Below the pieces are notes generated by a model. It did not search any database and was not told where the DNA came from. It was given only the letters and a program-made list of their open reading frames with translations. The position numbers and the translations under genes were made by a program. From positions 1 through 22,106 of the IMG/VR virus record IMGVR_UViG_3300021127_000037: a stretch of DNA of 22,106 bases. One strand, written 5' to 3'. How positions within the stretch are numbered: the first letter of the stretch is position 1; each line of letters opens with the position of its first letter. Shown here in pieces: positions 2,272 to 16,967 of this stretch. The DNA is from a virus.

Positions 2272-2880
2272 CTATGAAACACTGTCAACGTCTTGCGACA
2301 ATTGTTCTACTATTAGATTGGCATGAACTTTCACAAGCATAGCATATGAAATAGCATGTGCATGTTTGAAACTATACCCTTCCGAATTGTCAGTCCAAAT
2401 TTCATCTAAAACGCTATCGAAGCCATTCTTTATACACTTGTCTATTAGATGTTTTTTACCAGGTCGAATAAGGGCAAGTATTATAGCAACATGTTCAACA
2501 TTAGATGGCTTCAGTCTGGAAACCAAATCTGCATGGTTGCCTAAATGAATTAATTTAGAAACAAATTCTTTGTAGGTAAACAGCGTCCATTCAACTGGTT
2601 TTTCCATAAGCTCTAGTAAGTGTTGTTCGTTTTTAATCCCTTCATAAACACTTACATTTAAAAGGTCGAGTTTATACCAACCTCGATCAGCAGCAATATC
2701 GTATGGTAATGATGCAAGTTTGGTAATAGGGTCTATAGGAACTGTATGAAAATATACACCTGTATTGTGTTTGATTAGTGAGTTATTACGTATGATTGAT
2801 GCAGGAGTATGATTTAATACAGAAAGAGCTAAATTTCTATCAGCAAAATCAATGTCAACATCTCCGATAATTAATGACAT
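2272..2880 (-). CDS. Miniature DNA polymerase III alpha (C-family)-like protein
   Basis: The product is 202 residues when started at the ATG at 2880; an in-frame ATG at 2898 lies inside the upstream gene. It shows, in order, motifs that match the palm/finger region of bacterial DnaE: GDVDIDF (6-12, like PD-x-DVDF with the catalytic aspartates), KHNTGVYF (37-44, like KHAGGVVI), YKLDLLNV (69-76, like VKFDFLGL with the third aspartate), SRLKPSNVEHVAIILALIRPGK (like KRL-P-CFED-IALVAL-RPGP) and GYSFKHAHAISYAML (168-182, like GYGFNKSHSAAYAL). The full enzyme is about 1,100 residues, so the PHP, thumb and tau-binding parts are absent. The colinear order is seen directly; homology is my inference; polymerase activity is unproven. 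It is translationally coupled to the gene ending at 2871. Confidence 0.75.
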   Translation of the reverse strand: MSLIIGDVDIDFADRNLALSVLNHTPASIIRNNSLIKHNTGVYFHTVPIDPITKLASLPYDIAADRGWYKLDLLNVSVYEGIKNEQHLLELMEKPVEWTLFTYKEFVSKLIHLGNHADLVSRLKPSNVEHVAIILALIRPGKKHLIDKCIKNGFDSVLDEIWTDNSEGYSFKHAHAISYAMLVKVHANLIVEQLSQDVDSVS

Positions 2881-3119
2881 ATAATATATCCACTCCATGT
2901 GAGTTGAAATTCAACAGATTGGTTTTCTTCAATGTCCAGATAAAGTAATAGATAAAAATCGCGCTCGTGTATAGAATATTGTATATCTCTTTCTGTTAAC
3001 CAAAGAAAAAGAGGTGAGTCTGGATTGAGAACAGGTATTGAGAAAGTATTAGATTTATTATCTAACTGATATGCTAAGCAACTTTGCTTATTGTCCCAGT
3101 TGATTTTATAAAGTTTCAT
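2871..3119 (-). CDS. Hypothetical protein, 82 residues
   Basis: This is a small protein with aromatic and acidic content (FLWLTERDIQYSIHERDFYLL in the centre, VEFQLTWSG near the end). It has no recognisable domain. Its ATG overlaps the stop of the upstream gene in an ATGA arrangement at 3116-3119, and its own end overlaps the start of the DnaE-like gene, so the three genes are read as one unit. Confidence 0.7.
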   Translation of the reverse strand: MKLYKINWDNKQSCLAYQLDNKSNTFSIPVLNPDSPLFLWLTERDIQYSIHERDFYLLLYLDIEENQSVEFQLTWSGYIICH

Positions 3120-6487: not shown

Positions 6488-7327
6488 TCAGTAAGTTATT
6501 TTTTTCATATTAGATGGATATTGAACATCTGCATAAAATTTTTTACGTTTTAATAAATGCCTGTTGGAAAATTTACATCTACTGGCTATATCATAAATCT
6601 CAACTGCGTCCTTGTCATCTGCTTTTCTTAGTCCTCTGCCAATGCTTTGTATAACTCTTACAAAACTTTTGCCTGGTTCTAACAACACTAGATTGAAAAT
6701 TCTATTAATCGATATGCCTGTAGAGGTAGTACCATACGTGGCTATCATAATAGCATTATCAGCAAAATTTATTTCGTCATATAATACTTTACGTTTAGTA
6801 CTCTTCATTTGGCCGCTTATGAAGGTTGAATTTGGTATCAATTCTGAAAGAAGTTCACCTGTTTCAATTCTATCTATCAACACCAACGTATTTCCACTTT
6901 TAGCAATTTCTAAAATTCGTTTTGCCAACCAACCTATACGATGTTTGTTTGTGGTTAAAAACTTTAGTTCTTCTTGGTAATTTTTGTAAATTATATCTTC
7001 TTGTGTTTGTTCTATATTCACGTGACACTGTGCTAGATGCCCTTGCTCTTGCAATTCTCTAGCAGTAAGTCTGCCTATCATTGGCCCTATGGCACTGAAT
7101 AAACTTGCTTGATTATATTCCTCTTCCGGAATTGTGCCTGTGAGGCCCCAACGTATTGGAATATTTGAAAACGTGTTAGTTAGCAGCCCGTGCAATACAT
7201 TCATGTTTTTCACACTATGACAGTTAGACACTACGGCCCGTTCTACTATATAATTGTGATCATCCTGTACATGTAGGTTGTAAACTTGATCAGGTTTACT
7301 GATTTCTCGGCGACTTAGCAGTTTCAT
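6488..7327 (-). CDS. uvsW: UvsW helicase C-terminal fragment with C-intein
   Basis: The product is 279 residues. Residues 1-35 are a split-intein C-half: block F (QVYNLHVQDDHNYIVER) and block G ending AVVSN, where the terminal Asn is present but the usual preceding His is Ser. Cys36 is the +1 residue. From there the extein reads CHSVKNMNVLH, the second half of the DECH box, then helicase domain 2 with WGLTGTIP (motif III), NTLVLIDRIETGELL (motif IV), MIATYGTTSTGISI (motif V) and IQSIGRGLRK (motif VI). UvsW is the T4 branch-migration and R-loop unwinding helicase. It must be trans-spliced to the 9254-8244 product to give a helicase of about 484 residues, close to T4 UvsW. AGGA lies seven bases before the ATG, and the start overlaps the endonuclease gene by 32 bases. 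Confidence 0.93.
   Translation of the reverse strand: MKLLSRREISKPDQVYNLHVQDDHNYIVERAVVSNCHSVKNMNVLHGLLTNTFSNIPIRWGLTGTIPEEEYNQASLFSAIGPMIGRLTARELQEQGHLAQCHVNIEQTQEDIIYKNYQEELKFLTTNKHRIGWLAKRILEIAKSGNTLVLIDRIETGELLSELIPNSTFISGQMKSTKRKVLYDEINFADNAIMIATYGTTSTGISINRIFNLVLLEPGKSFVRVIQSIGRGLRKADDKDAVEIYDIASRCKFSNRHLLKRKKFYADVQYPSNMKKITY
7223..7327 (-). other. Split intein C-half, UvsW (35 residues)
   Basis: These codons encode blocks F and G of an intein, ending Ser-Asn directly before the +1 Cys that restores DE-CH. It is the partner of the N-half at 8247-8534. The Ser in place of the usual penultimate His is seen in some active inteins. Confidence 0.88.
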
Positions 7328-8207
7328 ATAGGTATCCTATCTTTCTTGCAGTTTCAGAATCAAATCTAGCTAGATCTGGCAATGGTACATTAGACGTTAG
7401 CCATTGTTGATCAATTAGCAATATTTTATAATCGTGTTGTTTTGCCCAGTCTTTAAGGACAGTATATTTTGCTTCCCATTTAGTGCCATTAAACAAGTTG
7501 TAAGGTTTGACCTCAACTACAAGTTTATCAACATGATCAATAAAATCAACGATGTACACATAATTCTTACCATCTAACATGTACATTAAACGAAGTTGTT
7601 CGTATTCAGATTGTTGATTATGATAATGGTATAATGCTTCCCAGCTAGATCTGTATTTTTTACCATCAAATGTTGAATTCCATCGACCAAATTGATTACT
7701 AGATTTTGGTGTAAATTTTCCAGTTAATATTAAATTTGTTATTGTTTTGGACAGATGGCACTTCTCCTCGTCAGAGTGTAGTCGTCCATACATTCCGTTA
7801 TTTTTGCCAGAATTCTGTTGTCCTATTTTATGTTTGGTCTCCGTTGAATGTTTTTTACCTGTAAATGTACCAGGTTTTCCTTTACTCCAGGGTATGCCGG
7901 TGTTTAAATTTTTCCGTATAGTCTCACTGTTCATATTCCATGATTTTTTTCCTCGATTTATTGCCAACTGATGTTTTATATCATATTCTGTTATTTCACC
8001 ACAAAACAATTTATCAAAGTTTTCAATCCATATACTAGTACGTGTGTTGGACAATCTAAGCCTAAATACATTTTTATTTTTTCCCGTTATTATTACCCCA
8101 TTCGACAACTTAATTAATGATCTATTATAGTCATCTATTCTTAGATTTTGATTATAATTTTCTAAAATACTATTGAATCGCGTTATTATATTTTCATACG
8201 TTGCCAT
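7296..8207 (-). CDS. Free-standing homing endonuclease in the uvsW break, PD-(D/E)xK type
   Basis: The product is 303 residues. Residues ~105-155 hold two NUMOD3-like DNA-binding repeats (HSTETKHKIGQQNSGKNNGMYG and HSDEEKCHLSKT), a module of HNH and GIY-YIG homing endonucleases. The C-terminal part has a PD-(D/E)xK signature: Glu190 (RSSWEALY), Asp221 (YIVDFIDH) and Glu232-x-Lys234 (VVEVKP), then a helix and KILLIDQQWL, like TnsA-type nucleases. It probably cuts intein-less uvsW to spread the intein. It lies between the two halves of uvsW, 36 bases after one and overlapping the other by 32. A hairpin covers its start, and a late promoter forms the hairpin's 5' arm. Target specificity is inferred from position. 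Confidence 0.85.
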   Translation of the reverse strand: MATYENIITRFNSILENYNQNLRIDDYNRSLIKLSNGVIITGKNKNVFRLRLSNTRTSIWIENFDKLFCGEITEYDIKHQLAINRGKKSWNMNSETIRKNLNTGIPWSKGKPGTFTGKKHSTETKHKIGQQNSGKNNGMYGRLHSDEEKCHLSKTITNLILTGKFTPKSSNQFGRWNSTFDGKKYRSSWEALYHYHNQQSEYEQLRLMYMLDGKNYVYIVDFIDHVDKLVVEVKPYNLFNGTKWEAKYTVLKDWAKQHDYKILLIDQQWLTSNVPLPDLARFDSETARKIGYLYETAKSPRNQ

Positions 8208-8243
8208 AAAATACCTATATGTCTTTGACTGTATGTATTTATG
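8205..8243 (-). promoter_or_regulatory. Late promoter within a start-codon hairpin, uvsW endonuclease gene
   Basis: The minus-strand late octamer CATAAATA (8236-8243) is itself the 5' arm of an inverted repeat (8235-8243). The 3' arm is 8205-8214, nine pairs with one bulged base, and contains the ATG at 8207. Read-through RNA could pair and hide the start. RNA begun at the octamer would lack the 5' arm. Confidence 0.5.
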
Positions 8244-9254
8244 TTAATAGTTGATAATGTCGTGATCAACAGTTATTTCATCAGCTCGGCACCACCCGAT
8301 GGTGGTTAAAAACTTATGATTACCAGTAACCTGTATTTTTGAATGATTATCAAATTCTAATTCATACATCTTTTCATTTGTTGAATCGGTTAGATTGCAA
8401 TGTTGTTTTATTACAGTGTCAACTTTGAATTGTTGTAACTTCTCAGAATAGTTGATAACCTGTTGCCCAGACGATATATCCTTTATTGGAATATATCCGG
8501 TAGGTGTTAAAACACGCATATCACCATTAAAACATTCATCGCATACCACTGCCACTAGATTATCTAAAAACACAGCCAGTTGGTCATCATCTAAAGCATC
8601 TTTATTTTTCTTATCTAAAACATTTAAACTCTGCCACGTGCAAATAGTATGGGTGCGATTATATTCTTTTCTATCGCCAAATAGTACGCCGACATCTAGT
8701 CCAATATTTCTGTAATCTTCTTCTGTTTGCAGAACTAAATTTTTATTAGGAACGATAACGATTGTACGACCATATTTTTGGGCAATCATAGATAGACTTG
8801 CTGTAATAATTGTTTTACCGGCACTAGTTGGTGCAACCGAAATTCCCTGTAAGTTATTGACGCACTCATTAATGGCTTGAACTTGGTAATCTCTTAGAAT
8901 AATAGGTTGCCCTGCAAATCTGTGTCCTGCAGGCCACACAATATGGCTTAAAAAATTTTCATCTATGTTATCAAATTCAAAAACGTGCTTAGTTCTTTTG
9001 TCAGTTATGGTAAATTCATAGCCTTCGTCAAGTAGAACAGGTAAAATTTTATCTAGCAAATTAAGGTATGTTCTACCACCTAAAGTACAAAAACTTGTGG
9101 TCCCGTCCCATCGTCCTAGTTTAAATGCTGGACTATAGCGAGCATGTGGTAGAAAATATTTTACAGCGTTTACACATAACCGGCGTGTTTTGAGATCAAG
9201 TCCTTCTAGTTTTACTGTAGTTTCATCTTCAATTATTAATTCAACTTGTTTCAT
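8244..9254 (-). CDS. uvsW: UvsW helicase N-terminal fragment with N-intein
   Basis: The product is 336 residues. The extein part is 1-240. It has an N-terminal DNA-binding region (FKLGRWDGTTSF, typical of UvsW), then helicase domain 1 with the Q-like LRDYQVQAI (~120-128), Walker A APTSAGKT (141-148), motif Ia IVIVPNKNLV and motif II beginning VVCDE (236-240). Residue 241 is the intein Cys1, starting block A (CFNGDMRVLTPTGYIPIKDI). Block B (VTGNHKFLTTIGW) follows and the frame stops after 96 intein residues. It must be joined to the 7327-6488 product by trans-splicing. GGTGG lies before the ATG, three bases after the uvsY-like gene stop. Confidence 0.94.
   Translation of the reverse strand: MKQVELIIEDETTVKLEGLDLKTRRLCVNAVKYFLPHARYSPAFKLGRWDGTTSFCTLGGRTYLNLLDKILPVLLDEGYEFTITDKRTKHVFEFDNIDENFLSHIVWPAGHRFAGQPIILRDYQVQAINECVNNLQGISVAPTSAGKTIITASLSMIAQKYGRTIVIVPNKNLVLQTEEDYRNIGLDVGVLFGDRKEYNRTHTICTWQSLNVLDKKNKDALDDDQLAVFLDNLVAVVCDECFNGDMRVLTPTGYIPIKDISSGQQVINYSEKLQQFKVDTVIKQHCNLTDSTNEKMYELEFDNHSKIQVTGNHKFLTTIGWCRADEITVDHDIINY
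8247..8534 (-). other. Split intein N-half, UvsW (96 residues)
   Basis: The frame has the canonical N-intein layout. Cys1 opens block A (GDMRVLTPTGYIPI) and block B carries GNHKF. It ends DHDIINY then stop, at the usual break position of canonical split inteins. The insertion point is within the helicase DECH box, between DE and CH. Confidence 0.92.
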
Positions 9255-9256
9255 TG

Positions 9257-9724
9257 TTAGCCACCTTTTGTATCAAGATTAGCATCTTCCATGCCAACTA
9301 CTCGTAGTCGAACAATGTTTGATATTTGCCAATTTTTAATTTCTAGTCCCTTCATAAGGGCTAGGTATTTGTTTCTTACTAGGCCTACTTCATTAATAAT
9401 CATATTCATGCTGACAATATCGTCCTCGCCATCAATGTATTTTTCTATACTGCGATCAGTTAAATCACGCTGGTATCTTTCTAGATATTTTCTATAATGA
9501 TCGCTTCGCATTTTGTCATATTTGATATTAAGATGTTTTAGGATAGCTTCTATTTCCTGAAGCTGCCCAAACCTGTGCGAGGTGATACCCGATAATTCTT
9601 GCGAATTTTTTTCCAGTTTACCAGATATTTTAGGTTCATTTTTAGCTGAATCAAGTTCGCTATTATAGTAATCAATTGCCGAAGGAATTTCAGCTAGATT
9701 TTCTACTATACGATTATACCACAT
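9257..9724 (-). CDS. uvsY: UvsY-like recombination mediator
   Basis: The product is 155 residues, predicted all-helical and highly charged. The region LNIKYDKMRSDHYRKYLERY (residues ~66-85) followed by a second helix and GLEIKNWQISNIVRLRVVGM near the end matches the general pattern of UvsY: a helical start, an 'HYRKY'-like middle, and an 'G-x-x-IKN-x-x-x-x-x-R' end. UvsY loads UvsX on gp32-coated single-stranded DNA. T4 UvsY is 137 residues. It sits immediately before uvsW, as in the T4 uvsY-uvsW neighbourhood, and between uvsX and uvsW here. The assignment rests on pattern and position, without a search. Confidence 0.62.
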   Translation of the reverse strand: MWYNRIVENLAEIPSAIDYYNSELDSAKNEPKISGKLEKNSQELSGITSHRFGQLQEIEAILKHLNIKYDKMRSDHYRKYLERYQRDLTDRSIEKYIDGEDDIVSMNMIINEVGLVRNKYLALMKGLEIKNWQISNIVRLRVVGMEDANLDTKGG

Positions 9725-10464: not shown

Positions 10465-10992
10465 TTATTCTCCTATATCAGTTACCGTATCATTGTCTAG
10501 ACTGTCTTGTGTTTGTAATAGTTTGCTTTCATCCCACTCATTCATGATTTGATCTAGAAGTGACGTAGGTATAGCTGAACGAAAATATTTGTGTTCTTTA
10601 CCTGAGTTGTCAACATATTTTAGTTTTGTACTATCTTTTACTAAGACACCTTTCTTCTCAAAAAGGTCAATGAGACCACTATAAGGATCCATACCTGTAT
10701 CCCAAGGGATTTTTATTTCAACGTTTTCAAACGGCTTGTTATATCTAGTCTTCATAATTTTGCATGCAGCACGAATACCACGAACATCTGTAACCTTTTT
10801 ACCATCTTCGTCTTCTTTAAGCTTGCGCTTTTGCATAGCTACAACAATTGATGATGCATAAATGAAACCCGAGTTATGGCTGACTACGCCGCTATCTAAT
10901 AGATAATGATGCGCATCGGGCACTGATATATCATATACTTTTTTGATACCTATATTTTTTTTACTTTTAATTTTGATTTTTTGTAGCGACAT
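10465..10992 (-). CDS. uvsX: UvsX recombinase C-terminal fragment with C-intein
   Basis: The product is 175 residues. Residues 1-40 are a split-intein C-half: block F (KVYDISVPDAHHYLLDSG) and block G ending VVSHN, with the expected penultimate His and terminal Asn. Ser41 is the +1 residue. The extein (41-175) begins SGFIYASSIVVAMQKRKLK, the strand after the L2 loop of the RecA/UvsX core, and continues through the rest of the ATPase core to an acidic end (DNDTVTDIGE). UvsX is the T4 RecA-like strand exchange protein. This fragment supplies about 135 of 354 residues. GGAG lies 10 bases before the ATG, and the start overlaps the endonuclease gene by 26 bases. Confidence 0.93.
   Translation of the reverse strand: MSLQKIKIKSKKNIGIKKVYDISVPDAHHYLLDSGVVSHNSGFIYASSIVVAMQKRKLKEDEDGKKVTDVRGIRAACKIMKTRYNKPFENVEIKIPWDTGMDPYSGLIDLFEKKGVLVKDSTKLKYVDNSGKEHKYFRSAIPTSLLDQIMNEWDESKLLQTQDSLDNDTVTDIGE
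10873..10992 (-). other. Split intein C-half, second UvsX intein (40 residues)
   Basis: This holds blocks F and G, ending SHN directly before Ser-Gly-Phe of the extein. It is the partner of the N-half at 12033-12311. The length is ordinary for the C-half of a canonically split intein. Confidence 0.92.
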
Positions 10993-11962
10993 TTTTGATA
11001 TACTCCTTTACCATTTTAATTGATTCTAGCATGTTATCTGATTCCCAAACTACTATAGTATGATACCCTCTGGTATTCAACATACACTGTTGTTTGTTTT
11101 TATCTCTGTCCCATATTTCTTGTGCTGTTAAATTTGTTTGTTTATGTAAGTATTCAGAATTATATTTTTTTGGATTACAATGCCAATAGTCTCCATAAAA
11201 TTCAACACAAAGATTAAATTCTGGGACAACAAAATCGAAAAAATAATAACAATTAAAATTTGAATCTAAAATTCCATATTCACCATTTTCATTGCAGGCA
11301 CTATAAATTTTGCAGCCAGCAAATATATTGCTTAATTCTAGAAAAAAGTTATTTGCCTTTTCTGAATTATGTCTATTTTTAAATTTTTTAGACCATAACT
11401 TTCGTCCTGCTACTTCTCCATGATTGTTAATATACCCATCTAGTGTATAATTTATTTTTCTAGATTCACATAGAGCATTATATTTCAAAGTTCCTTCAGT
11501 TTCTCCAAATTTTGATATAAAATATTGCAAAGACATATTATCAGAGCGTTGCATAATGTATGATTTAGCCTCATCCTCACTCATTCCATGTTCCATCCAA
11601 TATTCTTTGCAAAATGGAGATCTACGTTTTCTTTCAACCGTATCATATTTTTCTAATCTCAGTTGACTATTAGCATGTTGCACTATAGAAACTTGCTTGG
11701 TAGCATTTTCCATAGTGTATCCCTTCTTTATCCAATAATCAACGCTACGCGGACTTCGAGATTTCTGAAGTTGAGATATTTTTTCTTGCGATTCCTGCAA
11801 TGACAATCCTTTTTTTAGCCAATATTCAGCCGAAGTTTGACTGATTTTTTTAGGCTGTTTTAACTTTCTGTTGTTTTTGCACAATGATGAACATACATAT
11901 TGTATAGTCATTATACTATCTTTTTTTCTTATCATTTTTCCGCATTCAACACATGGTTTCAT
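10967..11962 (-). CDS. Free-standing Vsr-like homing endonuclease in the second uvsX break
   Basis: I start this at the ATG at 11962, nine bases after GGAGGG; the frame is open further up. The product is 331 residues. It begins with a zinc knuckle (Cys4, Cys7, Cys24, Cys28), then tandem 'EYW-x-KKG-x-x-x-E-A' DNA-binding-like repeats (for example EYWLKKGLSLQES, DYWIKKGYTMENA, EYWMEHGMSEDEA). The C-terminal nuclease domain has the Vsr-type pattern FFDF...CVEFYGDYWHCNP with Asp, Glu, Asp and His, then WDRDKNKQQCMLNTRGYHTI. This family is known from fractured phage genes with split inteins. Its start signals are locked in an 18-bp hairpin with a late promoter in the loop. Confidence 0.87.
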   Translation of the reverse strand: MKPCVECGKMIRKKDSIMTIQYVCSSLCKNNRKLKQPKKISQTSAEYWLKKGLSLQESQEKISQLQKSRSPRSVDYWIKKGYTMENATKQVSIVQHANSQLRLEKYDTVERKRRSPFCKEYWMEHGMSEDEAKSYIMQRSDNMSLQYFISKFGETEGTLKYNALCESRKINYTLDGYINNHGEVAGRKLWSKKFKNRHNSEKANNFFLELSNIFAGCKIYSACNENGEYGILDSNFNCYYFFDFVVPEFNLCVEFYGDYWHCNPKKYNSEYLHKQTNLTAQEIWDRDKNKQQCMLNTRGYHTIVVWESDNMLESIKMVKEYIKNVATKNQN

Positions 11963-11967
11963 GTGGT

Positions 11968-12019
11968 TTGCCCTCCAGTAATTTGTGTACGGTATATTTA
12001 GCAAATTACTGGAGGGCAA
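11968..12019 (-). promoter_or_regulatory. 18-bp hairpin hiding the ribosome binding site, with late promoter in its loop
   Basis: Arms 12002-12019 and 11968-11985 are perfectly complementary over 18 bases around a 16-base loop. The 3' arm contains the GGAGGG Shine-Dalgarno sequence of the endonuclease that starts at 11962. The minus-strand GCTAAATA (11995-12002) lies in the loop, overlapping the first base of the 5' arm. Transcripts begun there would carry only the 3' arm and stay open. Confidence 0.82.
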
Positions 12020-12029
12020 GGATTATTAG

Positions 12030-13148
12030 TTAAACAAGTTGTAGGATTTCATCATTTACGTACAATTCCGCTACAGTTTTCCATACTAATTGATTATTAG
12101 ACTGTTGCGTTGAAAACTTATGTTCGTTAGTGGCCTGAATTATTTCACCAGTTTCTAATTCAATTTCGATTACTTCTTTGTCATCAAATGTAAAAGTTTC
12201 TGAAACATCAATATCACCATCTAATGTCACAACAACATCCCCTTGCCGAATATCTTCAATATTCTTTGATGAACCGTCTGCCATCCAGATTTTGTGTCCG
12301 GCTGTTAAACAACCGCCTGAAATTTTGTCATCTGGATCAAACATGTCTTGTGATTGATAACTATGATTAGTCACAACCATGCCTACATCATACTCGCCGA
12401 ACATGTTCACGCAGTTGCGTACTAGTGCAGCCAGCGCCCGTGGTTTACGTCCCATGTCTCCTTTGAGGTCGCCTGCTTCAAATTGGTTTACATCGGTAGG
12501 TGTTAGCAACATGCCAAGACTATCAAGTACAAAAAGAGTCTTCTTGCGTTCTTCAGGAGCCAGGTCTTTGTACCATGCCATATAACCGGTAATAGTTTTA
12601 GCAACATCGTCAATCATAGCTAGGTTGACTTTGAAAAGCTTATCTGGATCAGTATCAACGCCAAGAGGTTTTAACCACTTTTCATCTAATGCGTTTTCTG
12701 TATCAATTAAGACAACAAATATACCTTGTTGCTGTGCATTCCGAACCATATTACCAGAACAGATATAAGATTTACCAGAATTATGACTAGAAAATCCATC
12801 TCCCCAGTAACGGTGGTTATCATGTAGGACTTCGAAATCAAAACATTCTTGATCATCTATGTCTGTAGTTGCAATAACAGTTTGCGGTCCGCTTGTAGTT
12901 AATAAAACATCGCCTACATTCACTTCTCCAGCTAATACCCAATCTTCTGAATCTAATTGTAGAAGATGGGTATATGCACATGATGTAGTGTGTGATTCCG
13001 TAATTATTGAAACCATTTGTAATTTGCCCTTATCAAACCATTGACCTATCGGTTGATAACCATCGGGTGTATCTATTTCAATATGGTAATTATTACTAGC
13101 GACCATGTTTTTTAATAGTTCTATAGTAACTTCCTGCTCAATAAACAT
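12030..13148 (-). CDS. uvsX: UvsX recombinase middle fragment flanked by two half-inteins
   Basis: The product is 372 residues in three parts. Residues 1-123 are the long C-half of the first intein, ending FSSHN. Residues 124-279 are extein, starting with the second half of the P-loop (SGKSYICSGN) and including Walker B (TLFVLDSLGML) and a DNA-binding loop region (DVGMVVTNHSYQS) up to DDKISGG. Residues 280-372 are the N-half of the second intein (CLTAGHKIWMADG..., block B TNEHKF). The polypeptide can become functional UvsX only after two separate trans-splicing events, one at each end. Its ATG overlaps the stop of the upstream endonuclease gene by 11 bases, with AGGA eight bases before it. 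Confidence 0.95.
   Translation of the reverse strand: MFIEQEVTIELLKNMVASNNYHIEIDTPDGYQPIGQWFDKGKLQMVSIITESHTTSCAYTHLLQLDSEDWVLAGEVNVGDVLLTTSGPQTVIATTDIDDQECFDFEVLHDNHRYWGDGFSSHNSGKSYICSGNMVRNAQQQGIFVVLIDTENALDEKWLKPLGVDTDPDKLFKVNLAMIDDVAKTITGYMAWYKDLAPEERKKTLFVLDSLGMLLTPTDVNQFEAGDLKGDMGRKPRALAALVRNCVNMFGEYDVGMVVTNHSYQSQDMFDPDDKISGGCLTAGHKIWMADGSSKNIEDIRQGDVVVTLDGDIDVSETFTFDDKEVIEIELETGEIIQATNEHKFSTQQSNNQLVWKTVAELYVNDEILQLV
12033..12311 (-). other. Split intein N-half, second UvsX intein (93 residues)
   Basis: It opens with Cys1 and block A (CLTAGHKIWMADGSSKNIED), has block B with TNEHKF, and stops after NDEILQLV. Length and break point are canonical. The insertion point is after KISGG in the RecA-type core. 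Confidence 0.92.
12780..13148 (-). other. Split intein C-half, first UvsX intein (123 residues)
   Basis: This is an unusually long C-half: it contains what is normally the rest of the N-domain as well as blocks F and G. A block-B-like segment (TTSCAYTHLLQLDSEDWVLAG) is inside it, followed by NVGDVLL and, at the end, CFDFEVLHDNHRYWGDGFSSHN-type block F/G residues. It matches the 15-residue N-half at 14348-14392. Confidence 0.88.
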
Positions 13149-14280
13149 AATTTTTTCCTATACTTTCTAACAAGGTTGTAACAACTACATCAGGTTGTTG
13201 TCTATATTCATTTTCCCAAATTATGAGTAATTTAGACACGTGAGATGTATCTTCTTTAATTTTTGTTGCTCTAGTTGCGTCTGTTGTCCATTTTTCTTTC
13301 GAACAGTAACCATGTGTAAAAAAATCTGCTGAAAAAAACAATGGATTTCTATGCCAATAATCTCCGTAGAATTCAATGACTGTTTTTGATTCAAGATGAT
13401 AGAAATCTACTCTAAATCCGCCTATCAATGCTTCGTGTGTAGTTGGCTTAAAATAACATGTTCCTTTGAGTTTTTCTCGAAGAGTTAAAAAAAGCTTATG
13501 CGATATATTTGAAAATGGAGACCTATTGATTTGTCGCATTCGTTCGCACATATCGCTGTATGCTGTAATCGCATCATCCTCTGAATATCCCCTAAGTATA
13601 TATCCATCAATTGATAATGATTTTTTACGATTTATAAGAGAAATTTCTTCAGTACTTTTAGATTGTAATGTATCTAGCCACGATTTAATTCTATTCTCAA
13701 ATAAAATCTTCCCGCGTTCTTTCCCGTATTTTTCAGTATAAAATTTTAATCCATTAGTGGTTTGAACTCTACGCACTTGCTCGGCTGCATCAGATTCAGT
13801 CAATCCCTTACGTAACCAGTATTCAATCGATCTATGTGTATAAATGTTCTTGCCACGTGTTTTTTCAACTGATTTTTTGTTCCTCTCAAGTTGTATCTCT
13901 TTAACTTTGTCATTAGCCGCTGCTATATCAAATCCTAAATCTGTCCAATATTTTACAGTATTTTTAAAATGTTTGCTACGCCTGGTGTCCTGTTCGTGCT
14001 TAATTTTTTCAAAATTTTTCTTGCCATACCGTAAAAACGCAGAAACATTTGATCGATCAGTTGGTATTTTCATCAATCTACGTAACCTTCCAACATAATT
14101 TATTAAATCATATTTTATAAAAGTTGCTATAGTTATATGCCACGTTTCTAATGACTTGCAAGTTCGGTCTTTAAATACTGCATTTAATCTAGTTATCTGT
14201 AAATCAGTTAATGCAATATTTCCTAATATTGCAATAACTGATTTCCGTTTCATAAATCTTTTAGCCTGTTTGTTCAACAT
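13138..14280 (-). CDS. Free-standing Vsr-like homing endonuclease in the first uvsX break
   Basis: The product is 380 residues. A basic helical N-terminus is followed by 'YW-x-x-LG' / 'EYWLRKGLTESDAAEQV' repeats (~110-171) like those of the other uvsX endonuclease. The C-terminal Vsr-type domain holds FRVDFYHLESKTVIEFYGDYWH with Asp292, Glu303, Asp307 and His310, then LLIIWENEY. Such enzymes would cut intein-less uvsX alleles and so spread the split intein. AGGA lies eight bases before the ATG. The stop overlaps the start of the middle uvsX fragment. Sequence shared with the 11962 endonuclease is at motif level only, so they look like distant relatives rather than recent copies. Confidence 0.87.
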   Translation of the reverse strand: MLNKQAKRFMKRKSVIAILGNIALTDLQITRLNAVFKDRTCKSLETWHITIATFIKYDLINYVGRLRRLMKIPTDRSNVSAFLRYGKKNFEKIKHEQDTRRSKHFKNTVKYWTDLGFDIAAANDKVKEIQLERNKKSVEKTRGKNIYTHRSIEYWLRKGLTESDAAEQVRRVQTTNGLKFYTEKYGKERGKILFENRIKSWLDTLQSKSTEEISLINRKKSLSIDGYILRGYSEDDAITAYSDMCERMRQINRSPFSNISHKLFLTLREKLKGTCYFKPTTHEALIGGFRVDFYHLESKTVIEFYGDYWHRNPLFFSADFFTHGYCSKEKWTTDATRATKIKEDTSHVSKLLIIWENEYRQQPDVVVTTLLESIGKNYVY

Positions 14281-14337
14281 ATTATGTTTCCTAGTATTAT
14301 TTTTACATAGTATTTATTATTATGCTGGACAAACAGG
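14265..14337 (-). promoter_or_regulatory. Late promoter between arms of an inverted repeat, first uvsX endonuclease gene
   Basis: The minus-strand AATAAATA (14311-14318) lies between 9-bp complementary arms (CCTGTTTGT at 14329-14337 and ACAAACAGG at 14265-14273). The 3' arm spans codons 3 to 5 of the endonuclease gene starting at 14280. The stem is short for its 55-base loop, so the fold is only tentative. Confidence 0.4.
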
Positions 14338-14344
14338 TAAAATA

Positions 14345-14581
14345 TTATTTCAATTTATATTGTATACGAACCTTGGCTGATGCAGGCAAACAACCACTCT
14401 GACCAGCAAACATCGTAACCTTGCCTAATGGGATTCCATTCCTAAAGTTACCAGATATTGCATAATTTAGTGCATAATTACCCGAATCTACCCAGTGTTT
14501 TGGATCATTAAATCCAACAGAAATACCTGGAATACTTTTTGTCAGATCTTTTCTAAATTTTGAGATGTCAAAAGGACGCAT
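14345..14581 (-). CDS. uvsX: UvsX recombinase N-terminal fragment with 15-residue N-intein
   Basis: I start this at the ATG at 14581, six bases after GGAG; the frame is open 14 codons further up but without a ribosome binding site. The product is 78 residues. Residues 1-63 (MRPFDISKFRKDLTKSIPGI..., PLGKVTMFAGQSG) are the UvsX N-terminus up to the middle of the P-loop. Residue 64 is the intein Cys1, and the intein part is only CLPASAKVRIQYKLK before a TAA stop. Joined to the next fragment it restores GQSG-SGKS. Splicing must occur here for any ATP binding. It is the first uvsX cistron downstream of gp32. Confidence 0.92.
   Translation of the reverse strand: MRPFDISKFRKDLTKSIPGISVGFNDPKHWVDSGNYALNYAISGNFRNGIPLGKVTMFAGQSGCLPASAKVRIQYKLK
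14348..14392 (-). other. Ultra-short split intein N-half, first UvsX intein (15 residues)
   Basis: Only block A is present (Cys1 to Lys15), where canonical split inteins carry about 90-100 residues. The remaining intein is encoded at 12780-13148 behind an intervening endonuclease gene. The stop codon directly follows, and no frameshift or second frame carries a missing N-domain in the 64 bases before the endonuclease gene. Confidence 0.88.
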
Positions 14582-14667: not shown

Positions 14668-15699
14668 TTACTTTCCTTGCTGACGCTTGCGTATTGCAGC
14701 AATAATATCATCAGGAGTTTGCATGCGGGGTTTTTCAACTTGTGTAGTTACAGATTGTGTAGCTTGTGACTGATCTTCCCATGGTGGAGTATCATCAGTT
14801 GAGGGTTTTGCCTGAACTTTATTCAGTATTGAATTACCTGTCATGGCAACAGTTGTTTTTGTTGATACAACTGTTGCATCTGCGTCACTACTTGTGGTGT
14901 CATTACGCATGCTAGTTGGACGGTAAAATTGGCCCCATTTATCAAGATCATATAGTTCTTGATCAACGCTAGCTTGGAATAGTTCCATTATAGCATTTAG
15001 ATGTGCTTCATCTGGTTTTTTAGGCAGAAAACTACTTAGGTTCCATAATCCATGAGTATTCATAGCAGCAGTTTCTATTTCTGATAGAGCACGCTCCTTC
15101 ATAGCCCACTTGCTTGATGCATAGTTTGCATAACCGCCTTTAGTAGTCTTGATAAGGTAGAAATCACGTCCGTGGTCGAAATCAGTAGGACTATTTTCGA
15201 GATCTTGATCCATAAGGATTGATTTAATAACATCAAACACTGATGGATTGATGATAAATCTACGGATCGGATTTTCCGGTTCCTGATCATCCTTATTAGG
15301 GTTTGATGGAACAAAGCCTTGGAACAGATAGCTCTTCTTTTTGTAATACTTCCGAGCCATGTCTTCGAGGCTCTTGTCTTTCCACCATGGACGAATTTCT
15401 GCTGTAATTGGACAAGAGCCTGCTTTCCACATATCTGTGCACGGAACTTGAACATCGACAGGTCTTCCAATAGGATCGCCTTTTACACCAGGAAATGGTA
15501 ATTTAATGATTAAGCGTTCACACCAGAAAAAATCGTTTGATTCATCGCCGTCTGGTAAGAATCTAAGAGTAGCGCTTGAACCATCTGGATTATTCCAGAA
15601 AGGATAAATCGAATTGTCGCCACCGCCATTCTTTGCTCGGTCTTTATTGGCTTGTTGTGCCAGTAGTTTTGCTTGTATTTCTTTAAGACTTAGTGCCAT
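14668..15699 (-). CDS. 32: Single-stranded DNA-binding protein gp32
   Basis: The product is 343 residues (T4 gp32 is 301). The N-terminal basic helix (LKEIQAKLLAQQANKDRAK) is the cooperativity domain. The core has FWCERLIIKLPFPG (53-71) and a zinc-binding candidate set Cys60, Cys87 and Cys96, followed by aromatic-rich DNA-binding sequence (RKYYKKKSYLFQGFV and RDFYLIKTTKGGYANY). gp32 coats single-stranded DNA in replication and recombination. Unlike T4 gp32, the very end (IIAAIRKRQQGK) is basic, though acidic/Pro-rich sequence precedes it. GGAGG lies eight bases before the ATG. A tandem 11-base repeat covers the leader, and a late-type octamer lies further upstream. Confidence 0.93.
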   Translation of the reverse strand: MALSLKEIQAKLLAQQANKDRAKNGGGDNSIYPFWNNPDGSSATLRFLPDGDESNDFFWCERLIIKLPFPGVKGDPIGRPVDVQVPCTDMWKAGSCPITAEIRPWWKDKSLEDMARKYYKKKSYLFQGFVPSNPNKDDQEPENPIRRFIINPSVFDVIKSILMDQDLENSPTDFDHGRDFYLIKTTKGGYANYASSKWAMKERALSEIETAAMNTHGLWNLSSFLPKKPDEAHLNAIMELFQASVDQELYDLDKWGQFYRPTSMRNDTTSSDADATVVSTKTTVAMTGNSILNKVQAKPSTDDTPPWEDQSQATQSVTTQVEKPRMQTPDDIIAAIRKRQQGK

Positions 15700-15852: not shown

Positions 15853-16347
15853 TCAAGTTCGCACGACTCTATCCAGGCTTTTTTTTTGATAAATGGATTT
15901 TTGTTCCCATAACGGATCAGGGTCCATACCCTTGTTAATGAACGGTAACTGTGAAATAGACCACGGTCTAATATGTGTGGCTTTAAAATGTCCTAGAATT
16001 TCTTTTCCGCCCATTAGACTTTTCATTGCATAAAGAGATGGAAGGTGAAATTCGTCACCATGCATAAATTGCTCAATACCGTCTGTTAGTTGAGTGTCTA
16101 AAAAGGCACAGGTTGTTAGGTTAGCAGCAATAGCTCCGGCACGCCAATTAAAATCTGGAGCAAGTAATCCATTAACATGAGAAATGCAGTCCAATGACAT
16201 TCCACTTTTATATGTAGGGTTAAGTCTAATTTTGGTTTCTTCTTCCTGAAATCCGCCCGGTGGACCCGGGCGATAAAGTATGTCTGATCGTATGCTCAAT
16301 ACATTATCATACACGAAATCATTATCAAGCTCATGTTGTCTTTTCAT
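15853..16347 (-). CDS. Glycosyltransferase-like protein, C-terminal part (interrupted gene)
   Basis: This is a 164-residue frame starting at ATG 16347, in the same frame as the 16677 gene and separated from it by one TGA and seven sense codons. It begins MKRQHELDNDFVYDNVLSIR with SDILYRPGPPG following, like the 'R-x-D-x-x-Y' metal/sugar-nucleotide region of small phage glycosyltransferases. It has HGDEFHLPSLYAM in the middle. There is no good Shine-Dalgarno sequence before the ATG, so it is probably not an independent gene. It lies just upstream of gene 32 on the same strand. The product may modify DNA bases or a virion surface, but the substrate cannot be read. Confidence 0.6.
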   Translation of the reverse strand: MKRQHELDNDFVYDNVLSIRSDILYRPGPPGGFQEEETKIRLNPTYKSGMSLDCISHVNGLLAPDFNWRAGAIAANLTTCAFLDTQLTDGIEQFMHGDEFHLPSLYAMKSLMGGKEILGHFKATHIRPWSISQLPFINKGMDPDPLWEQKSIYQKKSLDRVVRT

Positions 16348-16368
16348 AATTCCAGCGTGATAATCGTA

Positions 16369-16677
16369 TCAGGTTTGCTTCCAGTAAGACAATGGCAAAA
16401 ATTTAAAGGTGTGTATAGCATTATTGCAAAATTCATATGACTTCTGCCTGTCAAAAATGCTTTGAATCTCGCTATCGTCAAGAAAAAGGTAATCTATAAG
16501 TCTTGAATTATCAAATATTCTGTGTATTGTATTGGATGTGCATGAATTATCACAGGCTAATACAACGTACCAGTCTGGGTGGTTGTATATCCTGTCAAAC
16601 AAACGTAGGTTATATGGTAGCACATGTTCCCATGTCCTTGCTTGCCCTTTTACAATAATAGCGGTTCTCATGTCCAT
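16369..16677 (-). CDS. Glycosyltransferase-like protein, N-terminal part (interrupted gene)
   Basis: The 102 residues begin MDMRTAIIVKGQARTWEHVL. This 'II-x-GQ-R-x-w' start is typical of small glycosyltransferase-like proteins of marine viruses. It continues through an LRLFDRIYNHPDWYVVLAC strand-helix-strand segment and ends LSYWKQT at a TGA (16369-16371). The next seven codons and the following 164-residue frame are in the same frame, so this is either a gene split by a nonsense mutation or two pieces of a sequence error. The start overlaps the end of the upstream 99-residue gene. Confidence 0.62.
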   Translation of the reverse strand: MDMRTAIIVKGQARTWEHVLPYNLRLFDRIYNHPDWYVVLACDNSCTSNTIHRIFDNSRLIDYLFLDDSEIQSIFDRQKSYEFCNNAIHTFKFLPLSYWKQT

Positions 16678-16967
16678 TTGTAAACCTTTAAACCGATTCT
16701 ATGACCCAGCCATATTAACTTAGTATTAACATTTGCGTCAGGTTCATCAGCAATAACTCTATATGGGCAAACCGTTTCATTTTCAATTGCATATGTACAA
16801 GATGCCCACTTAATGAGTGCCCGTGGATGGCCAATTGCATAATTTTGTGTATCGCGCGAGTCTAATGTTGCAAAACAAATTTCGTCTCCTCTTAGAGGAT
16901 TTGCCCAATTTGGTATATAATTCGCAAATGCAAAATCACATTGGCACCAAACAATAGCGCCTATCAT
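16668..16967 (-). CDS. Hypothetical protein, 99 residues
   Basis: I do not recognise this protein. It has a hydrophobic N-terminus (MIGAIVWCQCDFAFANYI), an internal GDEICFATLDSRDTQNYAI segment and a C-terminal stretch with several aromatic residues (KLIWLGHRIGLKVYKWT). Cys8 and Cys10 form a CQC motif. Its start follows the 57-residue gene by seven bases and its end overlaps the next gene by 10 bases. No good Shine-Dalgarno sequence is visible, so it probably depends on translational coupling. Confidence 0.6.
   Translation of the reverse strand: MIGAIVWCQCDFAFANYIPNWANPLRGDEICFATLDSRDTQNYAIGHPRALIKWASCTYAIENETVCPYRVIADEPDANVNTKLIWLGHRIGLKVYKWT

Follow-up and report, generated by a model that had tools for sequence, protein, structure and literature searches.

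A phage uvsX gene in three pieces, with two different split inteins predicted to join its products

The IMG/VR virus record IMGVR_UViG_3300021127_000037 carries the recombinase gene uvsX in three separate open reading frames, all on the minus strand. The record is a fragment of 22,106 bases, and its whole length was analysed (the window). The first frame, uvsX-N (14345-14581), consists of 63 extein residues (14393..14581), ending in ...MFAGQSG within the Walker A P-loop, and an atypically short N-intein of 15 residues (IN1, 14345..14392; CLPASAKVRIQYKLK and a stop codon). The second frame, uvsX-M (12030-13148), encodes 372 residues, namely a C-intein of 123 residues ending in ...FSSHN (IC1, 12780..13148), 156 extein residues running from SGKS... 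to ...KISGG (12312..12779), and an N-intein of 93 residues followed by a stop codon (IN2, 12030..12311). The third frame, uvsX-C (10465-10992), encodes 175 residues and begins with a C-intein of 40 residues ending in ...GVVSHN (IC2, 10873..10992; its Shine-Dalgarno sequence, identified by eye, is AAAGGAG), to which 135 extein residues (SGFIYASS...) and a stop codon are attached (10465..10872). A putative homing endonuclease gene (HEG) fills each break: HEG1 (13138..14280, 380 residues), whose end overlaps IC1 by 11 nt, and HEG2 (10967..11962, 331 residues from its ATG), which overlaps IC2 by 26 nt. The coordinates and lengths of these frames had been given exactly in an earlier, sequence-only reading of the locus, which had also recognised a middle chain with a C-intein ahead of its extein and an N-intein behind it, and intein ends at the borders (each N-intein starts with Cys1, each C-intein finishes in His-Asn, and Ser follows at +1). 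Its proposal that two trans-splicing reactions join the three polypeptides is still the best reading of the sequence, and we give it a probability of about 0.87.

The three frames match a single PHROG family of UvsX-like recombinases, phrog_97, in order: uvsX-N covers profile positions 18-84 (E 2.9e-12), uvsX-M positions 83-238 (E 2.2e-29) and uvsX-C positions 344-460 (E 9.6e-15; also phrog_18112, E 2.3e-24). The first break (site a) cuts the P-loop between ...AGQSG and SGKS..., a junction that agrees with intact relatives. The second (site b) separates ...KISGG from SGFIYASS... in a stretch that we take to be the RecA loop L2 region. When joined, the exteins make up 354 residues and align over both junctions with 81 intact uvsX relatives (27-75% identity). 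The stretch up to 9 residues from site a is free of gaps in 75 of these relatives, and the corresponding stretch around site b in 76; intact genes of this kind in related phages were what the sequence-only reading had proposed to look for. An AlphaFold model of the uvsX-M chain (64-row alignment) reached a mean pLDDT of 88.4 and a pTM of 0.62; its best structural match was the intein VidaL (PDB 6vgv), followed by RecA inteins and by UvsX/RecA structures, the latter matching the extein. By these comparisons a UvsX-like recombinase is encoded as three polypeptides, and the 354-residue product would be recognisable by the ligated junction peptides MFAGQSGSGKSY and DDKISGGSGFIYASS.

Intein a belongs to the VidaL family. 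IC1 of the window matched 6vgv with a phmmer E of 8.8e-39, a profile of 16 IC1-like stretches did so with an E of 3.7e-54, and the uvsX-M model superimposed on 6vgv with a TMt of 0.82, 51% identity and an rmsd of 1.4 over 125 columns. Of 126 positions in the C-intein of the contig L002, where uvsX is split at site a only, just 3 disagree with the 6vgv chain; these include the last residue, Asn in L002 and Ala in 6vgv. The 6vgv chain is flanked by ESG and SGK, as are the inteins in UvsX and in L002. Because of this near-identity together with the ESG/SGK flanks, the uvsX P-loop site is very probably the native home of VidaL. VidaL has a 16-residue N-intein, is split after strand beta-2, and trans-splices with a half-life of about 1 min at 37 °C (PMC13014065), and by analogy intein a would be expected to trans-splice likewise. 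Short N-inteins are the norm at this site: they measure 15-33 residues in 35 of the 38 splits tallied, while two of the remaining three were miscounted as 92 residues through a pattern error (L003 N frame) and L273 was unparsed. The window's 15 residues equal the length of the PolB16 OarG N-intein, which a 2023 paper calls the shortest characterised (PMC10189870). The same element is contiguous (cis) in L004, L087, L091-L093 and L081; a histidine of IC1 (H61) is invariant in 16 of 16 rows, and a scan of bacterial and archaeal genome contigs returned no relatives of intein a. An AlphaFold model of a contiguous site-a uvsX (L004, 8 rows) was set aside because its mean pLDDT was 57.5 and its extein part was poor.

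Intein b, in contrast, is by its sequence a canonical split intein. The profile of the intein N-terminal region, TIGR01445, matched from uvsX-M residue 280 with 26.1 bits (curated cut-off 24.5), and that of the C-terminal region, TIGR01443, matched uvsX-C residues 18-41 with 27.9 bits (cut-off 15.6, E 1.9e-6); the solved structure nearest to the IN2 profile is the gp41-1 intein (E 1.1e-10). The residues of a class 1 intein are in place, with Cys1 at M residue 280, H64 of IN2 in 7 of 7 rows, and ...VSHN followed by Ser. The split into 93 and 40 residues fits the canonical lengths (N-part about 90-120, C-part about 35-50), as do the site-b rows, where the N-part has 90-104 residues in 22 of 28, the other 6 being unparsed. 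The claim of two different split types thus holds, as a VidaL-type intein a beside a canonical intein b, with the refinement that site a, being of the VidaL family, is no new split type. The sequence-only reading also called the recombinase essential, which goes too far: T4 uvsX mutants are impaired yet viable.

According to the proposed mechanism, IN1 would dock to IC1 and IN2 to IC2, each pair would splice in trans, and ligation of the 63, 156 and 135 residues would yield UvsX; the P-loop would be complete only after the first reaction and the L2 region only after the second. The stretch with the invariant histidine (H61 of IC1, H64 of IN2), presumably block B, sits in IC1 and IN2 and is absent from IN1 and IC2. 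The sequence-only reading had held that the inteins must be orthogonal, as otherwise the first and last pieces could join directly and skip the middle. This shortcut is probably blocked: the wrong pair IN1 and IC2 (15 + 40 residues) should not splice, because about 80 residues and the block-B histidine are lacking. The sharper hazard is pairing of IC1 with IN2 within the middle chain. Its order of C-intein, extein and N-intein is that of the SICLOPPS constructs used to make circular peptides; the chain has all blocks and might in principle cyclise, which divergence of the two inteins alone would prevent. The inteins a and b of Salicola phage SCTP-2 (see below) have no significant BLASTP similarity to each other.

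Alternatively, the three pieces might assemble non-covalently, by fragment complementation, with the intein halves merely docking. Split intein halves do bind each other, which speaks for this idea. We consider it unlikely, since the splice residues Cys1, His-Asn and Ser +1 are intact at both sites, break a falls inside the P-loop, and VidaL, the closest characterised relative, splices (PMC13014065). Some points nevertheless weigh against the trans-splicing reading. Trans-splicing in the window is deduced from sequence. Orthogonality is something we infer from absent blocks, and the usually crucial histidine is reported to be dispensable in PolB16 OarG (PMC10189870). Finally, the window is a 22-kb fragment, and an intact uvsX may sit elsewhere in the genome. 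A second uvsX was not found in seven records searched (G001-G007, six core contigs and a 306-kb record, none of them known to be complete), where the sole extra match was 30% identity over 55 residues in G005.

To the trans-splicing reading we also compared a decaying pseudogene, in which HEG invasion destroyed uvsX and the phage does without it or borrows the host RecA. Nothing direct speaks for decay apart from the fragmentary contig, and the pieces are under purifying selection. Compared with the related contig L086, the nonsynonymous and synonymous differences per site (pN/pS) were 0.131/0.74 for the N extein, 0.096/0.65 for IC1, 0.144/0.85 for the M extein, 0.135/0.59 for IN2 and 0.137/0.60 for HEG1; against L108, used where L086 is cut, they were 0.010/0.13 for IC2 and 0.130/0.83 for the C extein. 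Among the least constrained comparisons were the C extein with L221 (0.316/0.71) and with L103 (0.143/0.40), and HEG2 with L086 (0.278/0.57). Synonymous sites of the exteins are often saturated, and quotients are not quoted there. Two sets of comparisons were left out, IC1 with L103 (24% identity) and HEG1 with L103, L104, L105 and L108 (20-22%), since they pair the window with other inteins or HEG2-type genes; pN/pS in them was about 0.7. With pN well below pS in the uvsX pieces, the three-piece layout retained in diverged contigs and no second uvsX seen in the seven records, decay is very improbable.

The second break bears the expected mark of a cassette, IN2-HEG2-IC2, that homed between phages as one unit with co-conversion of its flanks. 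In comparison with L104, L105 and L108, DNA identity was 92% in IN2, 96% in the gap with HEG2 and 97% in IC2. In the M extein, identity was 67% over the first 300 nt and 64-81% closer to the border; in the C extein it fell from 85-88% (nt 1-60) through 82-87% (nt 61-120) to 67-71% beyond. The cassette was about 91% identical to that of L103, with 95-100% over the first 120 nt of the C extein and 73% beyond. Against L104, L105 and L108, synonymous differences per site were 0.65-0.92 in the M and C exteins and 0.08-0.25 in IN2, HEG2 and IC2. We propose homing because the cassette is far more alike than the distal extein DNA, and this co-conversion signature was seen for the HEG2 cassette only.

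The sequences of relatives indicate that loss of a HEG leaves the split in place. About the last 25 codons of HEG2 remain in L102 and a 76-position remnant of HEG1 in L088, while the split persists in both. The final 52 nt of the 61-nt gap in the VidaL-like L002 align with the 54 nt that end the HEG of its sister L227, with two mismatches and one 2-nt gap. By eye, one frame in each of the gaps of L003, L237, L257 and L259 reads the HEG end WESE...NP, and the L001 gap holds a weaker WAEY version. Relatives thus show empty, cis, split-with-HEG and split-with-HEG-scar states, and each break probably arose when a HEG invaded an intein and was then kept after the HEG had eroded.

The two genes in the breaks, called endonuclease genes already in the sequence-only reading, both match phrog_22677 best (HEG1 E 7.1e-13, HEG2 E 3.6e-23), a PHROG of unknown function, and phrog_3339, a homing endonuclease family, second (E 0.00035 and 5.5e-6). 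HEG1 has the motif EFYGDYWHxNP, and no Pfam family matched HEG1 itself. A profile of nine HEGs (HEG1, HEG2 and seven relatives) matched the Vsr structures 1odg, 1vsr and 1cw0 weakly (E 0.0013-0.0017), as the three best of four matches, and PF18741 (REase_MTES_1575) was found in five of the nine members (best E 0.00026). We therefore regard both as putative Vsr-like homing endonucleases. HEGs often reside in group I introns, and the exons of uvsX could in principle be joined as RNA. This explanation is even less probable than decay of the gene: the borders bear intein residues, each N-intein is followed by a stop codon and each C-intein preceded by a start, and no Rfam family reached its gathering score in the window. 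Known RNA elements, group I introns included, were rejected on the same result.

Many HEG starts lie in or just past a hairpin that follows the stop codon of the N-intein, and both HEGs of the window begin at one. That of HEG1 (14265..14337, minus strand; arms 14321-14337 and 14265-14281, one mismatch and one G-U) has the late-promoter-like motif AATAAATAC in its loop at 14310-14318 and the HEG1 ATG within its 3' arm. That of HEG2 (11968..12019, minus strand; 5' arm 12002-12019, 3' arm 11968-11985) is a perfect 18-bp stem, with CTAAATATA in the loop and the HEG2 Shine-Dalgarno sequence (TGGAGG) in the 3' arm; the ATG at 11962 behind it is a more likely start than the TTG at 12019 chosen by the gene caller. 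The HEG2 hairpin folds with -34.8 kcal/mol (z -9.7) and that of HEG1 with a z of -4.9; in neither case was any of 200 shuffles equally stable. The HEG starts of relatives gave z values of -6.0 (L086), -3.9 (L089), -3.6 (L082), -3.8 (L103) and -9.2 (L104). Among 36 split sites with a gap above 900 nt, z was below -3 in 26, compared with 1 of 36 in the mid-HEG control, and a TAAATA-type motif was present in 29. After collapsing to 32 distinct HEG-start regions, several of them from close relatives and hence not independent, 23 had an inverted repeat of at least 8 bp (shuffle mean 4.45, mid-HEG 7), 17 had the motif inside the loop (shuffles 0.4, mid-HEG 0), and 10 combined the loop motif with a Shine-Dalgarno-like string in the 3' arm (shuffles 0.0).

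The I-TevI-type switch of T4 is closed on read-through messages and open on late messages. By the same logic, the hairpins at many HEG starts probably prevent translation of the HEGs from the read-through message for the uvsX pieces, and late messages would begin in the loop at TAAATA, so that the HEGs would be made late. Several observations count against such a general control element: 9 of the 32 regions have no 8-bp inverted repeat and 7 no motif, the full set with the Shine-Dalgarno arm is absent in 22, the TAAATA-type motif is not enriched across the window (12 found, 14.7 expected), and no hairpin was found at the start of HEG3, the endonuclease gene in uvsW described below. The motif CATAAATAC does stand at 8235-8243, despite the missing hairpin. 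As a window-wide signal the T4-late-promoter-like motif was rejected; only its placement before HEGs is unusual.

For the distribution of the double break, several of the queries covered the best 80 loci (of 599, 129, 100 and 191). Several queries carried inteins, and the counts of states are not population frequencies. Among the loci examined, 249 matches to the M extein represent 168 distinct DNA sequences. Given as site a/site b, their states were empty/empty in 82, split/empty in 29, cis/empty in 19, empty/split in 10, split/split in 5, cis/split in 3 (among them L264, which is really cis/cis), empty/cis in 2 and cis/cis in 1 (SCTP-2). Another 17 had an unseen or cut end: no N-piece/split in 7, split/cut in 3, IC only/empty in 3, and one each of split/cut with IN, IC only/split, no N-piece/cis and no N-piece/cut with IN. 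The split/split sequences are L084 and L085, which are of the window type, L001, which has no HEG genes, L221, and L095, a 306-kb virus with an M extein of 31% identity. Two further loci are cut by contig ends, L086 on the C side (IC1 82%, HEG1 75%, part of a HEG2 relative) and L215 on the N side. The double break is thus found in two near-identical contigs, in four diverged ones (two of them cut) and in one distant 306-kb virus.

The extein tree was a careful IQ-TREE analysis of 79 rows, with three too-short rows dropped, intact rows thinned to one in five, and 21 long or distant rows, L095 among them, standing outside. On this tree the three-piece state requires at least 5 changes, with 22 changes at site a and 11 at site b, gain and loss being counted alike. 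L086 clusters with L105, which is empty at site a (99/93), apart from the window.

Three of these loci have peculiarities of their own. In L095 (7111-8202), by eye, the second break lies one residue further on and ends in Ser-Asn/Cys; the frames above 70 residues in its 1-kb gap are on the opposite strand only, with one zinc-finger-like motif. This break is perhaps independent, with a decayed HEG. The site-b gap of L221 (6117-7697) holds a 525-residue frame that looks endonuclease-like by eye and is unmatched by the HEG1 and HEG2 profiles; here another gene family probably occupies the break. L264 (2554-4332) was at first taken for cis/split, which was rejected: both of its uvsX inteins are contiguous, with one in-frame TAG in the extein just before GGC, which may reflect a mutation, recoding of amber codons or an error in sequencing.

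The contigs 3300021142_000235 and 3300032579_000827, whose metagenome numbers differ, match the window with 100% protein identity in IC1, IN2, HEG1 and HEG2, and their exteins are identical over the compared columns. A continuous uvsX in a second assembly would have spoken against the sequence-only reading, and these two contigs carry the broken layout instead. That misassembly of a single metagenomic contig placed genes inside a normal uvsX is the least credible alternative, next to these identical contigs, the diverged versions and cultured phages with single breaks.

The uvsX pieces stand in a recombination module on the minus strand, with the downstream order single-stranded DNA-binding protein (14668-15699; phrog_1192, E 1.1e-59), uvsX-N, HEG1, uvsX-M, HEG2, uvsX-C, two small genes, a uvsY-like gene (9257-9724; phrog_231, E 4.3e-15), uvsW-N, HEG3 and uvsW-C. 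The uvsW helicase gene is also fractured (6488-9254, minus strand): uvsW-N carries a 96-residue N-intein after VVCDE, HEG3 is of the NUMOD3 type, and uvsW-C starts with a 35-residue C-intein that ends in Ser-Asn ahead of Cys, while the corresponding DE/CH site of L002 carries an intein in one piece. From their sequences, uvsX and uvsW are predicted to need three trans-splicing reactions in one module. Elsewhere in the window, a 208-residue frame (2272-2898, minus strand) matched the DNA polymerase family phrog_11778 (E 2.2e-55) and showed weak similarity to a section of phrog_405, so the DNA polymerase may be in pieces too. Three consecutive short frames (15853-16967, minus strand) resemble by eye one broken gene, maybe a glycosyltransferase, and 15853-16347 had no match in PHROGs; no tRNA was found in the window. 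In L001 (1073-3637), TerL lies, by eye, in two frames with a short N-intein in an AceL-TerL-like layout, and the second frame seems to carry a contiguous intein as well.

Each single break of uvsX was already known. The window shares the short N-intein and the sequence and fold of the C-intein with VidaL (6vgv, 6vgw), which is used as a two-piece tool; beyond this it has another split intein and two HEGs, whereas the VidaL-like L002 has one break only, with site b empty. The cultured Pseudomonas phage PA5oct has uvsX split at site a, with a 17-residue N-intein and an HEG-like gene in the gap (gp276/gp275/gp274), and differs from the window in its empty site b. Both gp276, the N-piece, and the HEG-like gp275 carry the annotation hypothetical, and the record of gp274 notes electrospray tandem mass spectrometry (ESI-MS/MS). 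IC1 is matched by eleven Pseudomonas records, including two for PA5oct; the layout was examined in PA5oct alone. For its relative MIJ3 a split PolB intein is reported, and the words 'UvsX' and 'RecA' are absent from the main text of that report. In the cultured T4-like phages HY03 of Escherichia (L361) and Pm5461 of Proteus (L362), a canonical split intein breaks uvsX in the region of site b, and a HEG lies between the pieces (annotated in the order DNA repair protein, homing endonuclease, recombinase), but site a is unsplit and the +1 residue is Thr. Salicola phage SCTP-2 has both inteins at both sites in gp204, as in the window, yet contiguous (143 and about 134 residues) in a single 669-residue frame, and is thus the unsplit counterpart.

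Dassa et al. are said to have described, in 2009, enzyme genes that a split intein divides and whose gap holds a free-standing endonuclease gene related to Vsr; control elements accompany some of them. The uvsX of the window is of this kind, a conserved enzyme gene with a split intein and a free-standing HEG in the gap, but whereas such fractured genes are reported to be broken in two, this one is broken in three by two split types. The joining of three segments by two orthogonal split inteins has been engineered (PMC12707363, PMC11271493); those tandem systems are man-made, while the window would be a natural case. In the openly licensed literature (CC0, CC BY, CC BY-SA) we found no case of two split inteins dividing one natural gene into three pieces and no paper joining 'split intein' with 'UvsX', so that both breaks in one natural gene look new.

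Going further, we suggest tentatively, at somewhat less than even odds, that natural tandem trans-splicing has arisen several times in these phages, in each observed case as the combination of a short-N-intein split in the P-loop with a canonical split in L2, whose mismatched geometry allows ordered, error-free assembly. If so, the breaks may persist as a ratchet, and they could delay active UvsX until all three pieces have been made. On the trans-splicing reading as such, the engineering logic of joining three segments by two orthogonal split inteins is found in a natural, important phage enzyme, with intermediates among its relatives, and the locus offers a naturally selected split-intein pair that should be compatible. 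It very probably gives VidaL its native genomic home, where even the HEG-less version still keeps the HEG tail, and it illustrates how split inteins can form by HEG invasion, persist as a scar once the HEG is lost, and spread by homing of an IN-HEG-IC cassette.

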